A stretch of 64,000 bases of DNA from Tenacibaculum jejuense (GTDB lineage Bacteria; Bacteroidota; Bacteroidia; Flavobacteriales; Flavobacteriaceae): assembly GCF_900198195.1 (NCBI RefSeq), contig NZ_LT899436.1, positions 1,088,501-1,152,500 of the forward strand, in the 5' to 3' direction. The notes beneath the pieces were generated by a model. It saw nothing but the letters and a program-made list of their open reading frames with translations. It had not been told where the DNA came from and searched no databases. Positions 16,230 to 20,729 of this stretch are shown one piece after another (position 1 is the stretch's first letter; every line of letters starts with the position of its first letter). A program made the position numbers and the translations under genes.

Positions 16230-16246
16230 CTAAAAGTTACTTTTTT
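16226..16246 (+). terminator. Short terminator at the stop of the thioredoxin-fold gene
   Basis: GTAACT (16226-16231) and AGTTAC (16235-16240) form a 6-bp stem over AAA, followed by six T residues. The stem includes the stop codons of both convergent genes. Confidence 0.6.
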
Positions 16247-18264
16247 AAAATATAAGCACCATCTTCATTTGTATTATGAAATGGTGTTTTTTGTATAGCG
16301 CAAATTTCTGACCAACGTTTTATATAACTTTTATAATTTGATCCATCACTAATAATTAATTTTGGATTTATTTCTTTTATAAGACGTTCTAAATTCAATT
16401 TTGGAGAGTTCTTCAATATAACAATTGTATTTTCTAATTTCTTTTTTGGATAAATCGCTAAACTATCTATAATAAGATATTTATAATTTAAAAATCCAAT
16501 GACTTCTTTTTTGGATGACTTAGTGTGATTTTTGATGTTTTCTTTTGTTTTATAGGCATCAAAAAACTTTAATTTAGAAATAGCTAAACTATCAAGATTA
16601 CTGATCAAATCAATTGAGTTACTATTTCGTATACCAATTAATGAATGCTTATTTTTATGAAATACTATAATCTCTTGTTGTGATTTTATTTCATGTCTTT
16701 GAAAAATATAAAGCGATTGTAAACACAGTATGCATCCTAATAAAATGAAAAGCAGTTTTAATTTGAATTTTTTGAGAAGTGAAATTATAATTAACATTAT
16801 AATATAATATAGAATCATATTCCGAAAAGGAAGATGAATATGACTAAAGATAAAATCTTCATACGAAGCAACTTTACTAATGATTAGGTTCATCCATGAT
16901 ATGATGCTACTGTAAAGAGTCACTAAAAACTCAGGTAGTATTTCACAGTAAGCTAATATTAGAACAATTAAACCTAAACTTAAAATAAAACCAATACAAG
17001 GTATAATAAATAAGTTAGCGATTAAAAATAAACTTGGAAACTGATGAAAATAATAAAGACTAATAGGTAATGTACTTATTTGTGCAGCCATAGAAACTGT
17101 TGTTAATTTCCAAAATTTATTTAAAAAGAATGTTCTGGGTGTCCAAAGTTTCTTCAGAAGAGGTTGAATCCAGATGATACCAAATACGGCTAAATAACTC
17201 AATTGGAATCCTATATCGAATAGAAACATCGGCTCTACTAAAAGTATACATAACATAGAGCTTACTAAAGAAAATTCAACAGGTTGATTTCTCTTAATTT
17301 GATTTCCAATCATGATAAAAGTAAACATTGTTGTTGCTCTTACAACAGATGCTGACATCCCTGTGAAAAATGCGAAAAACCATAAAAGTATTAAAGTCAA
17401 AACAACCCTTAAGTATTTACTTTTTTTTAATGGTAATAAGCATGTTAAAAGAAAGTTTAATAAGTAGCATACAATTCCAATGTGTAAGCCTGATATAGCT
17501 AAAATATGAATAGCTCCAGCTTTTGTGTAATTTTCTTTTAATTCTGAAGATAGGTCTTGACGTTGACCTAATAGCAATGCATTAGTAACAGCTAATTGAT
17601 CTTTTGAGAAAGAATATTTTTTAAGGCTCTTTTGTATTTGTTTTCTTAAAGTTAAAACGAATTTAGATAATGAAATCCTGTCGTTTTTTACAGTTGTAAA
17701 ACTGCCTTTATTTAGATGTAATTGATGAATTATTCCTTGGTTTTTCAAATATTCTGCATAGTTAAATTCATGAGGGTTTTTGGCATTGGATATGTATTGC
17801 AATTTAGCTTGAGGGATTATTAAATGACTAAAATTTATAGTATCAAAATCATACGATTTATCAAGGTATAGAATCACTTTTCCGCTAGAACTTTTATCAT
17901 TTACTTGAATAATATTTGCAATAAATTTATGAGAGTAACTATTAGATTTTAATTGATTACTTATCTCTAGTACAATAGTATTTTCAGAAGATAGAAAATT
18001 GGTATAGAACTTTTTTGAATTCATATCGTTTGTTATGAATTTAGTAGTCATACCTAAAACAATAAAGCATAAAGCGAAGCTAAACTTTTGATACGTTGTA
18101 CGTTTCAATATACGTACTAAGTTTAAAAAAATTAAGAATAAACATACCCCTAAAAATAATATTAAATTGTGGGTAATAATAAGTGAGTACTTGTGTTGTA
18201 TGTATATACCAAAAATTACACATAGCAATATATGCATAGGTATATACCTAAGTAAATTTTTCAT
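16237..18264 (-). CDS. comEC: ComEC/Rec2 competence DNA-uptake channel, Bacteroidota type
   Basis: About 675 residues from the Met at 18264 (MKNLLRYIP); an upstream in-frame Met at 18306 adds 14 residues that look non-coding. The N-terminus has two helices and a DUF4131-like region. The Competence domain follows with the signature ALLLGQRQDLSSELK and HILAISGLHIG near residue 260, then about seven transmembrane helices. The protein forms the inner-membrane channel for single-stranded DNA in natural transformation. The C-terminal ~130 residues occupy the place of the metallo-beta-lactamase-like domain but show no HxHxDH motif, only LIISDGSNYKSYIKRW and a late FHNTNEDGAYIL; such degenerate tails are usual in this phylum. 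Confidence 0.9.
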   Translation of the reverse strand: MKNLLRYIPMHILLCVIFGIYIQHKYSLIITHNLILFLGVCLFLIFLNLVRILKRTTYQKFSFALCFIVLGMTTKFITNDMNSKKFYTNFLSSENTIVLEISNQLKSNSYSHKFIANIIQVNDKSSSGKVILYLDKSYDFDTINFSHLIIPQAKLQYISNAKNPHEFNYAEYLKNQGIIHQLHLNKGSFTTVKNDRISLSKFVLTLRKQIQKSLKKYSFSKDQLAVTNALLLGQRQDLSSELKENYTKAGAIHILAISGLHIGIVCYLLNFLLTCLLPLKKSKYLRVVLTLILLWFFAFFTGMSASVVRATTMFTFIMIGNQIKRNQPVEFSLVSSMLCILLVEPMFLFDIGFQLSYLAVFGIIWIQPLLKKLWTPRTFFLNKFWKLTTVSMAAQISTLPISLYYFHQFPSLFLIANLFIIPCIGFILSLGLIVLILAYCEILPEFLVTLYSSIISWMNLIISKVASYEDFIFSHIHLPFRNMILYYIIMLIIISLLKKFKLKLLFILLGCILCLQSLYIFQRHEIKSQQEIIVFHKNKHSLIGIRNSNSIDLISNLDSLAISKLKFFDAYKTKENIKNHTKSSKKEVIGFLNYKYLIIDSLAIYPKKKLENTIVILKNSPKLNLERLIKEINPKLIISDGSNYKSYIKRWSEICAIQKTPFHNTNEDGAYILKK

Positions 18265-18291
18265 AGCCCTGTAAAGATATAAAAAATATAG

Positions 18292-18435
18292 TTGCAGGAA
18301 ACACAATTAAAAAACACTAAAAAATACCAAAAAATAATAATCTATGACTGGAATTATTCAAAATACGAATTTGTAAACTCGACTTATAATGATCTCGATA
18401 CTATTGTAGAACTACTATATAAAGTAAACACTTAA
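18292..18435 (+). other. Open frame without a start codon, possible remnant of a lost gene
   Basis: A 47-codon frame with no ATG runs to a TAA at 18433-18435. Its last 30 codons read like the end of a real protein (YDWNYSKYEFVNSTYNDLD, then TIVELLYKVNT), with varied aromatic and charged residues unusual for random AT-rich DNA. It may be a truncated gene end; chance is also possible. Confidence 0.2.
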
Positions 18436-18478
18436 AGACTAAAAATAAAGAATTGAAGAAGTAGGAGAGAAAAGGAAC

Positions 18479-18502
18479 AAACCACGATGGAGATCGTGGT
18501 TT
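18479..18502 (-). terminator. Terminator of the small leader-peptide gene
   Basis: AAACCACGAT (18479-18488) pairs exactly with ATCGTGGTTT (18493-18502) over a 4-nt loop. On the minus strand it starts 10 nt after the stop of the 58-codon gene and is followed by a T-rich stretch. Confidence 0.72.
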
Positions 18503-18512
18503 TTCAATAAAG

Positions 18513-18689
18513 TTATTGTTTACAAAAAGGATTGTTAGGATTCCTTTTACAATACTCAGATGCAGGACCTTCATCACAATCATGAGTTGCTGAGAAATGA
18601 CAAGGAGCTTGACGTTTTGCTCCATTAATAAATTGTTGTTCAGACTTGTTTAACACAGTGCCTAAATTTGAAATGTTTTTTAACATCAT
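18513..18689 (-). CDS. Small cysteine-rich peptide with a Gly-Ala leader (bacteriocin/RiPP-like precursor)
   Basis: A 58-codon gene (57 if the second of two Met codons is used). The first half is leader-like: LKNISNLGTVLNKSEQQF, then INGA, the pattern of double-glycine-type leaders in Bacteroidota peptides (usually ...EQQxINGG). Cleavage after A24 would release a 34-residue peptide with four cysteines (C30, C38, C47, C56) and the ending NPNNPFCKQ; two disulfides are likely. Such leaders are normally cut and exported by C39-peptidase ABC transporters (family knowledge); none is in the window. The gene has its own -7/-33 promoter (18713-18743) and terminator (18479-18502). Activity (bacteriocin, signal or other) is unknown. 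A longer frame at 18401-18625 on the same strand overlaps it in another phase and looks non-coding. Confidence 0.72.
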   Translation of the reverse strand: MMLKNISNLGTVLNKSEQQFINGAKRQAPCHFSATHDCDEGPASEYCKRNPNNPFCKQ

Positions 18690-18712: not shown

Positions 18713-18743
18713 GTAAGATACAGAAAGATTTCATAGAAGTCAA
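18713..18743 (-). promoter_or_regulatory. Candidate promoter of the small peptide gene
   Basis: On the minus strand TTG (18741-18743) is followed after exactly 20 nt by TATCTTAC (18713-18720), which shares six of eight positions with TAnnTTTG. The same 20-nt spacing occurs at lysS, thrS and the small RNA. Confidence 0.45.
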
Positions 18744-19010: not shown

Positions 19011-20729
19011 ATGAAAACCCTCATTACTTTAAACAGTAAGCATAAGTATTACACTATGCTGGCATTTTTAATTTTTCTGTCATGTACAGATAATTCAATG
19101 GAACTAAATGATCTTGGTATCAATGTTGAAGAGCAGCATCAGTCTTTAAAAAATAAAATAATAGATGTAAATGAAATTTCAGTCTCTGCAAACGGTGATG
19201 ATGGAAATATTCCATCAAATACATTAGATGGTAACCTGAATACTAGATGGTCATCAAAAGGAAGAACTGGGAAATATATTACCTACGATTTAGGAAAAAT
19301 AAGAAAAATAGATGCAATTAGAATAGCTTGGTTTAAAGGAAACCAAAGAAAAACTTTTTTTCAAGTTGCAGTTGGTAACTCAACATCGTCGCTAACCACT
19401 ATTTTAAATAGAAAATCAAATGGTTCATCAGGTAATTCTAACGGTTTTGAGTTTTACGAATTACCAGATACAGAAGGAAGATTTTTAAGAATTAGAGGTT
19501 TTGGTAATTCTAGTAATGATTGGAATAGTATTACTGAGATAGAAATTTTAACAACGACATCAAATGGTTCAACAGCTGTTATTCAAGTTCCTTCTAGAAT
19601 TCAAGCTGAAGATTTTACATCACAAAAAGGAACTCAAACTGAGGCTACAAGTGATACTGGCGGAGGTTTAAATGTTGGTTATATAGATGCAGGTGATTAT
19701 TTAGAGTATGAAATTGATGTGCCTGAAACGAAAGATTATAATTTTGAATTTAGAGTAGCATCACTAAATAAAACTATTCGATTTGATGTAATTAGTAACG
19801 GAAACAGACTAGCAGGTATTAGTAAGGCAACAACAAACGGTTGGCAAAATTGGATTACAACAAAAAAGACAATCCGTTTGAATAAAGGAATACAAACATT
19901 ACGTTTATTGGCTACAGATGGTGGATGGAATATTAACTGGTTAGAAATTAAAGAAGATCAATCAAACCCAGATCCAAATCCGACACCAGGAAGTTCACCT
20001 GCTTCAATACTTGGAGGTTTAAAAAATTGGAAGCTTAATGGCTATTCAGGAACATTTCAATTAGGGGCTTCTAATAATGGGCTAACTTATGTAGATAAAA
20101 CCCCAAATTTACAGACATTCAGTAATCCAGAATGGTTTTACACAGATGGAACTTGGACTTACTTTAAGGCTTATCCAGGAAATCCAACTTCGAGTGGTTC
20201 TGGTAACCCAAGATCTGAATTAAGAGAACTAACAACTAACGGAAATGCAAATATTTATTGGGATGGAACTACTAGTAAAGAACACAGAATGATCTGGAAA
20301 GTAAAAGTAGACCGTTTACCACAATCAGGTAAAGTTTGCTTTGGTCAAATACACGATAAAACAGATAAGTTTGATGATGTAATACGTGTTCAATGTCAAG
20401 GAGACCCTTTTCAAACTTCAGGAGAAATTACTTTAAGAATAAATGGTTATGTAACTGAGGTATTAGAAGGAGGAGGTAAGTCTGTTGGGAAAATTAGAAT
20501 AGGAGAAGAATTATACTATGAGCTTACTTATCAAAACAGTGTAGTAAAACTTTACGAATTAAATAGTAGTGGATCAAGAGTAAAAACAATTTTCACTTCT
20601 AAAAAAGCAGCTGCTAAAGAAAATTATTTTAAAGCAGGTTGTTATTTGCAATCTGTAAAAGGGAAAAAAGCAAAAGGACCAAACGATTTTGGATTGGTAG
20701 GAATAAAAGAATTAAAAATATTTCATTAG
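19011..20729 (+). CDS. Secreted PL7 alginate lyase with CBM32 and CBM6 modules
   Basis: A 572-residue lipoprotein (lipobox FLSC, C25). Residues ~52-180 are an F5/8 type C (CBM32-like) domain (TLDGNLNTRWSS, ITEIEI). Residues ~192-315 are a CBM6-like domain (IQAEDFT, GYIDAGDYLEYEI, GWNINWLEI). A Pro-rich linker (~318-330) leads to the PL7 catalytic domain. The three PL7 motifs are present: RSELRE (401-406), QIH (446-448) and YFKAGCYLQ (539-547), giving catalytic H448 and Y545. QIH in place of QVH is associated with activity on guluronate-containing blocks. The enzyme cuts alginate by beta-elimination, probably at the cell surface. It converges on two beta-helix lipoproteins. No SusC/SusD or oligoalginate genes are present. 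Confidence 0.93.
   Translation: MKTLITLNSKHKYYTMLAFLIFLSCTDNSMELNDLGINVEEQHQSLKNKIIDVNEISVSANGDDGNIPSNTLDGNLNTRWSSKGRTGKYITYDLGKIRKIDAIRIAWFKGNQRKTFFQVAVGNSTSSLTTILNRKSNGSSGNSNGFEFYELPDTEGRFLRIRGFGNSSNDWNSITEIEILTTTSNGSTAVIQVPSRIQAEDFTSQKGTQTEATSDTGGGLNVGYIDAGDYLEYEIDVPETKDYNFEFRVASLNKTIRFDVISNGNRLAGISKATTNGWQNWITTKKTIRLNKGIQTLRLLATDGGWNINWLEIKEDQSNPDPNPTPGSSPASILGGLKNWKLNGYSGTFQLGASNNGLTYVDKTPNLQTFSNPEWFYTDGTWTYFKAYPGNPTSSGSGNPRSELRELTTNGNANIYWDGTTSKEHRMIWKVKVDRLPQSGKVCFGQIHDKTDKFDDVIRVQCQGDPFQTSGEITLRINGYVTEVLEGGGKSVGKIRIGEELYYELTYQNSVVKLYELNSSGSRVKTIFTSKKAAAKENYFKAGCYLQSVKGKKAKGPNDFGLVGIKELKIFH

Follow-up and report, generated by a model that had tools for sequence, protein, structure and literature searches.

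The minus-strand gene at positions 18513 to 18689 of the window (the whole 64-kb stretch of Tenacibaculum jejuense DNA that was analysed) is best explained, from its sequence and those of its relatives, as coding for one of the many precursors of a large secretion family. The precursor is predicted to be cut after a Gly-Ala pair, exported by a shared C39 exporter, oxidised and secreted, most likely as an antagonist, and this reading is considered fairly probable. The gene and its surroundings comprise the following features.

18513 to 18689, minus strand: 58-codon precursor peptide gene, MMLK...FCKQ, stop codon TAA, start at 18689 or 18686; identified from the frame and the relatives of its leader.
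18618 to 18689, minus strand: leader MMLKNISNLGTVLNKSEQQFINGA, with cleavage expected after Gly-Ala from the family consensus.
18516 to 18617, minus strand: 34-residue core, net charge +1, with cysteines at precursor positions 30, 38, 47 and 56.
18479 to 18502, minus strand: terminator-like hairpin AAACCACGAT-CTCC-ATCGTGGTTT, identified from shuffles and folding energy.
18715 to 18743, minus strand: promoter-like TTGACT-17-TATCTT, of a frequency equal to chance expectation and partly common to the relative at locus L010 (by eye).
18401 to 18625, minus strand: overlapping 74-aa frame, judged spurious as it traverses the hairpin and as relatives match the leader of the other frame.
16237 to 18306, minus strand: ComEC-type competence gene (Pfam Competence, DUF4131), flanking the peptide gene.
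19011 to 20729, plus strand: gene for an alginate-lyase-type secreted enzyme (Alginate_lyase2, CBM_6 and F5/8 type C domains), flanking the peptide gene.

The 58-aa frame and the cysteines C30, C38, C47 and C56 are present where an earlier note on this DNA had placed them, as is a double-glycine-type leader of 24 residues with GA at its end. A second in-frame ATG follows the first, and the leader may therefore have 23 residues. A hydrophobic pattern ending in GG, GA or GS before a short core, which marks leaders of this kind, is found in the window peptide. The longer overlapping frame that had been pointed out at 18401-18625 also exists (minus strand, 74 aa), but it was rejected as the true gene because, among the 30 best DNA matches, the similarity to relatives is limited to the codons for the leader of the 58-aa frame and at most about 18 nt ahead of them. 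A chance open reading frame is ruled out by the family matches, with leader relatives in the same genus reaching E values down to 5.5e-11 and close relatives occurring in three named Tenacibaculum records.

The earlier note had regarded the gene as a complete stand-alone transcription unit, of which one end is borne out. The terminator hairpin has 10 bp at 18502-18479 and lies 10 nt past the stop codon; its folding energy is -13.2 kcal/mol (z -5.0), equal stability was reached in 0 of 200 shuffles, and 1 terminator-like site was observed near the gene versus 0.2 in shuffles. The promoter sequence TTGACT-17-TATCTT does exist at 18743-18715, but it is not enriched over chance, with 5 promoter-like sites in the 701 bp searched versus 4.8 +- 2.1 in shuffles. 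The sequence TTGACTTCT recurs by eye at about the equal place in one relative (L010), which lends the promoter weak support.

The window peptide has no match to Pfam or NCBIfam models at E<=10 and none in the PDB at E<=1, and the 64-kb window has no tRNA and no Rfam family above the gathering score. The structure predicted for the peptide from 6 rows has a mean pLDDT of 47 and is not usable.

The genome of T. jejuense is a single contig of 4.61 Mb, in which the peptide gene occupies the gap between the ComEC-type gene and the oppositely oriented alginate-lyase-type gene; there is no evident immunity gene among these neighbours. In the sister genomes G181 and G173 the neighbour of the ComEC-type gene matches the window lyase gene (75% and 74% identity), and the gap between the two genes is much shorter and without the peptide gene. 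A single gene unit thus appears, from the sequences compared, to have been inserted in T. jejuense or lost in G181 and G173. An association with comEC itself was rejected, as a leader peptide (E<=0.1) is present at only the T. jejuense locus among 27 ComEC loci, each covered with flanks of about 1.5 kb at most and, for L150, with just about 0.2 kb upstream.

A search of the T. jejuense genome with the single sequence gave 31 places at E<=10, and a family profile built from 20 of these matches gave 56 places at E<=1, the window gene being included in both. Members with E<=1e-4 number 48 and occupy 25 separate places, over 10 kb from one another; 13 genes stand together in the biggest cluster. 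The earlier note had proposed a search for homologues with the same leader and cysteines, and these occur in 50 of 166 same-genus genomes (profile match at E<=1e-4), in which peptide counts are lower bounds with at most 39 candidates scored per genome. In a Flavobacteriaceae sample with at most 21 candidates scored per genome, family members were found in 28 of 299 genomes and 25 of 236 genera. The best NCBIfam match by number is NF047798, which 5 of 20 members match at E<=1 (best E 0.046), and Pfam gives scattered weak matches only for these 20 members. No description of the peptide family was recognised in the available parts of the literature consulted, which left subscription papers mostly outside its scope (PMC6671954, PMC7268733, PMC10352776, PMC8939145, PMC11879956, PMC5524665, PMC3482391).

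Leader and core differ sharply in their conservation. A leader-only profile applied to the fetched loci gave 639 frames, and removal of identical copies and of leaders under 23 residues left 555 distinct frames, 552 of them with a core of 15-80 residues. The family leader consensus is MKKSILNLGKALNKAEQKQINGG. Of its 23 positions, 14 have an entropy of no more than 1.3 bits, versus 3.8-4.1 bits at every one of the first 25 positions of the core. The leader ends in GG in 490 of the 555 and in GA in 7. At 50% identity, 545 distinct cores fall into 259 clusters, and 152 of these are singletons, including the window core, whose best relative score lies inside the cysteine-fixed null. The leader DNA itself gives little sign of recent spread, an explanation that was rejected: the same-codon rate at shared residues is 0.65 in 96 leaders, which were chosen by similarity, and exceeds only modestly that of ComEC (0.53, 11 genomes) and that given by codon usage (0.52).

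It could be that the window gene is a decaying orphan copy in which leader and terminator persist while the core no longer matters. The singleton core, the rare GA end and the presence at one ComEC locus of 27 would fit such decay, but the frame is open with its four cysteines and hairpin intact, and singletons are normal in a family in which they make up 152 of 259 core clusters. We find decay quite improbable.

The cores have a strong preference for even numbers of cysteines. Among the 552 cores, one cysteine occurs in 1 core, two in 16, four in 245, five in 21, six in 238 and eight in 31, and there are no cores with 0, 3 or 7. An odd count is thus found in 22 of 552 cores, or in 8 of 259 when one core is taken per 50%-identity cluster, versus about 0.50 expected from shuffling and odd-count fractions of 0.33 to 0.56 for the other 19 residues. 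In T. jejuense, 5 of 46 distinct cores are odd, each with five cysteines. This is the pattern expected of nearly complete pairing, which suggests that the family cores are probably disulfide-bonded.

The even-cysteine rule also bears on the idea that the window peptide is a lanthipeptide or another enzymatically modified RiPP, which we hold to be highly improbable. T. jejuense does encode a lantibiotic dehydratase and LanC at about 723-728 kb, and 3 of 20 family members marginally match a leader model for class I lanthipeptides (best E 0.45). The LxLxKx5L leader motif is found in many, though not all, class I lanthipeptide precursors of Bacteroidetes, according to the accessible part of PMC7268733. 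By eye, the 722.8-kb locus has its own precursor with this motif, which occurs in 0 of 552 family members, and no profile-detected family member lies within 100 kb of the locus. Ser and Thr together are fewer than Cys in 302 of 552 cores. Lanthipeptide identity was rejected for the window gene itself, as LanB/LanC are not beside it and the only LanC found, at 722.8 kb, is far off. The distant locus (L135:9838-14550, about 722.8-727.5 kb) is a class I lanthipeptide-like locus in its own right, with LanC, lantibiotic dehydratase and an LxLxK leader precursor.

Selection could be assessed in core types with close relatives, which the window core does not have. Across 99 independent pairs of similar cores, the dN/dS ratio was 0.15 for cores and 0.19 for leaders, values that may be biased down by the choice of pairs of equal length with a core DNA identity of 0.70-0.985. 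Cysteines were kept at 512 of 512 positions and other residues at 2794 of 3369 (83%). Core types that have close relatives are thus under constraint of some kind, and fast-evolving arms-race cores are unsupported within core types. Purifying selection would also be consistent with a disulfide-rich inhibitor or binder (a protease inhibitor, a lectin-like protein or a host-directed effector) secreted by the same route, an alternative that keeps a small but real share of the probability. Some family cores resemble known folds weakly, namely Prokineticin (E 9e-4), scytovirin (E 0.006), WAP (E 0.011), and carboxypeptidase inhibitor and defensin-like proteins (E 0.013). However, the Prokineticin and WAP matches are below the curated Pfam cut-offs and may rest on cysteine spacing alone, and the window peptide matches nothing in Pfam (E<=10) or the PDB (E<=1).

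The earlier note had suggested looking for a C39 transporter in the same genome, and two full-length C39-peptidase ABC proteins are encoded there, at 495.6 kb and 4224 kb, with the motifs Q..DCG and Q..SCG, the cysteine of which sits at the usual C39 catalytic place. The 495.6-kb exporter lies with an HlyD gene inside the 13-gene family cluster, in a module at 489-498 kb that holds many peptides. Beside it is encoded an oxidase of 544 aa, composed of a degenerate C39-like domain, VKOR and Thioredoxin_4, with the motifs CLLC and CGHC. The 4224-kb exporter has one family gene and an HlyD gene beside it. This second C39 ABC and HlyD locus (L026:1067-6872, about 4.222-4.228 Mb) also contains two unusual frames with GG leaders, which are acidic or rich in Asp/Asn/Ser, along with a nucleotidyltransferase-domain protein.

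VKOR is above the cut-off in 47 of 166 genus genomes, and a C39 gene lies at most 10 kb from 51 of the 59 VKOR genes compared. The distribution of VKOR follows that of the peptides, being found in 44 of 50 peptide genomes versus 3 of 116 others in counts that ignore kinship. Among 78 C39-bearing genomes, peptides occur in 44 of 47 with VKOR versus 3 of 31 without it (p 1.4e-14, kinship ignored). Two genomes without VKOR, G012 and G179, have at least 39 scored peptides each; G012 is 67% complete. In G179 a lost VKOR module is possible because its RNA sites (see below) lie near a contig start, three of the six at most 0.8 kb from one. Four others (G017, G075, G083 and G090) have 1-3 peptides each without VKOR, and G096, G104 and G149 have VKOR without profile-detected peptides. 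The core cysteines may depend on the oxidase. At L209 of G083, which is without VKOR, a family leader behind an RNA element precedes a core with no cysteine in the 75 of its 76 residues that were read; at L197 the same genome has another family core, with four cysteines.

Export of a disulfide-rich peptide by a C39 transporter encoded elsewhere, as the earlier note had proposed, is well supported at the level of sequence by the relatives and the C39 exporters. In the proposed mechanism, a C39 domain would recognise the leader and cut it after Gly23-Ala24, and the 34-residue core would pass through the ABC/HlyD-type exporter. The VKOR-thioredoxin protein would then make two disulfides outside the cytoplasm, and the folded peptide would act outside the cell. 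Its action may, at a guess, be bacteriocin-like antagonism of competing bacteria, with a target of its own for each paralogue. An antagonistic role is favoured because the family resembles the bacteroidetocins (PMC6671954, available in part). Counting against this reading as a whole are the singleton window core, the rare terminal GA (7 of 555) and a promoter at chance level.

Alternatively, the exported peptide could be a signal or pheromone that is sensed by the producer or its kin instead of killing. The logic of leader and C39 domain is the same as for ComC-type peptides, 2 of 20 family members weakly match the ComC model, with an E value of 0.017 at best, and a gene for a LuxR-family regulator (GerE) lies near the 489-498 kb module of T. 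jejuense; a regulator-like gene beside the module of G027 has no Pfam match. Against a signal stand the approximately 50 different cores per genome, mostly with four to six cysteines each, and flanking genes of the window peptide gene that are not receptor-like. A signal has a small probability, and the antagonist role is more likely.

An RNA pseudoknot of about 60 nt stands before many of the family genes with an MKK-type leader; one instance is given here.

490027 to 490086 of the T. jejuense genome (G000:C1, locus L202): RNA element, one of at least 18 sites in the genome, none of them in the window.

The element has three parts: a hairpin whose loop, UCGCGA, is invariant; a stem formed by AGACAC and GUGUCU; and a pseudoknot in which the loop of that stem pairs with a stretch ending about 27 nt before the start codon. 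Covariation was assessed in 41 diverse sequences chosen out of 156; same-genus genomes supplied 33 of the 41, and seven further genera the remaining 8. The collecting pattern required UCGCGA and parts of helix 2, which accounts for part of the invariance there, but it made no demand on the pseudoknot. The covariation is strong: in the pseudoknot helix 94% of cells are paired and 6 of 6 pairs have both-sided changes, in helix 1 80% are paired and 4 of 5 pairs have such changes, and helix 2 is nearly invariant with 98% paired. None of 500 shuffles reached any of the five measures used, and slid structures were just 32-55% paired. Minimum-energy folding of three elements was no better than shuffles (z -0.37, -1.04 and -0.49), and RNAalifold, a pseudoknot-free method, shows the middle stem only. 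What supports the RNA is its covariation and its position. Two of the 41 sequences (L100 and L101), which stand before VKOR genes, are without most of the pseudoknot loop. At these sites (L100:509-568 and L101:7541-7600), the UCGCGA hairpin loop has an alternative potential partner further downstream, UUCGCGG or UUCGCAG.

Of the 156 elements, all drawn from loci chosen for their family genes, 150 stand before a leader-family frame, with a distance of 78-85 nt between element start and ATG for nine in ten; the other six precede VKOR (2), a C39 ABC frame (2), a lipoprotein-like frame (1) or no frame (1). A whole-genome search used a model of helices 1 and 3, and 150 of 2202 candidates were scored in T. 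jejuense. The resulting sites, at least 18 and placed by coordinates, all lie before family peptides or the exporter gene as far as scored: at 17 the model ends about 20 nt before a family-peptide ATG, and 1 is about 200 nt before the C39 exporter gene. No site was found in 12 peptide-free genomes. Of six other same-genus peptide genomes, G179, G020, G083 and G090 (one weak site) have the element and G017 and G075 have no site. The VKOR genomes without a profile-detected peptide have 2 sites (G096) or none (G104 and G149), and the other-genus genomes G247 and G382 have 20 and 8. A simple pattern made 24 of 30 fetched sites readable; 22 of these run into a leader-family frame (three being the same gene on one contig), one runs into VKOR and one into no frame. 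Rfam 15 gave no credible match to the element on 11 loci, its two matches (E 1.1 and 2.8) being to eukaryotic families far below the gathering score and the one at L173 lying off the element. Judged against Rfam, the RNA is apparently new.

By leader type, the element precedes 133 of 387 MKK, 5 of 35 MKN and 7 of 39 other genes. Among 89 genes of the window's leader type (MLK/MIK/MVK and alike) none has it, and it is absent from the 64-kb window (best E 1.7). The window gene, set singly between unrelated genes, would thus belong to a second, pseudoknot-free arm of the family. About half of the MLK-type genes have a promoter motif, TAnnTTTG, near the start codon: it lies 20-39 nt upstream in 0.51 of 79 such genes versus 0.15 when shuffled, and the window gene has a degenerate form of it only. 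A TAnnTTTG promoter upstream of the RNA element was rejected (11 of 156 versus 9 shuffled). By eye, MLK-type genes (L089, L096 and L138) have a second conserved element, AAGTAAGG....CCTTACTT followed by TTACGGTTTT, about 55-90 nt before the start codon.

It is conceivable that the family forms a venom-like library of dozens of unrelated, disulfide-locked peptides with a common leader and a common module for export and oxidation. The three-helix pseudoknot, not described before, would then switch many of the peptide genes together with that of the exporter and, in some genomes, that of the oxidase, the window gene lying in the pseudoknot-free arm. We regard this idea as equally apt to prove right or wrong. 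Within it, the pseudoknot just before the start codon could be a riboswitch or a protein-sensed leader, and the palindromic UCGCGA loop could dimerise. If the library reading is true, some 50 different disulfide peptides leave one genome via one or two machines and offer a natural library for studying cargo tolerance of C39 exporters, disulfide formation in Bacteroidota and peptide targets. The RNA would be a new cis-regulatory RNA with a ready set of target genes.

Among known systems, the bacteroidetocins, proposed class IIf bacteriocins of Bacteroidetes, are close in kind. As far as the available part of PMC6671954 describes them, they share with the T. jejuense family a GG-type leader, four cysteines, a thiol oxidoreductase gene, an ABC exporter with a double-glycine peptidase domain and their occurrence in Bacteroidetes. 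That part of the paper reports no immunity gene. However, the bacteroidetocin leader is 15-16 aa long, whereas that of the window peptide is 23-24 aa, and bacteroidetocins, peptides of similar size (42 aa for A and B), are encoded in a four-gene region with a five-TM protein, the peptide, the thiol oxidoreductase and the ABC exporter (PMC6671954, same part). The window gene is instead flanked by the ComEC-type and alginate-lyase-type genes, and T. jejuense has about 50 mostly unalignable cores, many of them far from the exporter. By leader length and gene layout the window peptide is not a bacteroidetocin. NF047798 (leader_Chryseo, 'bacteriocin-like protein') is a leader model to which the family matches are all weak and the window peptide has no match at E<=10.

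Class II microcins of Enterobacterales are likewise unmodified GG-leader peptides exported by C39 ABC and HlyD-type proteins. They are few per genome, with an immunity gene beside the peptide, and are not known to have a VKOR partner. Conotoxin precursors, which use eukaryotic secretion, resemble the family in joining a conserved leader to variable disulfide-rich cargo; set against them, similar cores of the peptide family diverge under purifying selection. Prochlorosins have lanthionine rings and LanM, whereas the T. jejuense family has even cysteine numbers and a VKOR oxidase. The two are alike in having one leader type, many divergent cores and many precursors encoded far from a shared enzyme; prochlorosins receive mention in PMC7268733. 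A GG-leader peptide is of an ordinary kind, and what is unusual is its setting among about 50 paralogues whose cores follow an even-cysteine rule, with VKOR as a partner and with an RNA element, apparently new, before the genes of the sister branch.
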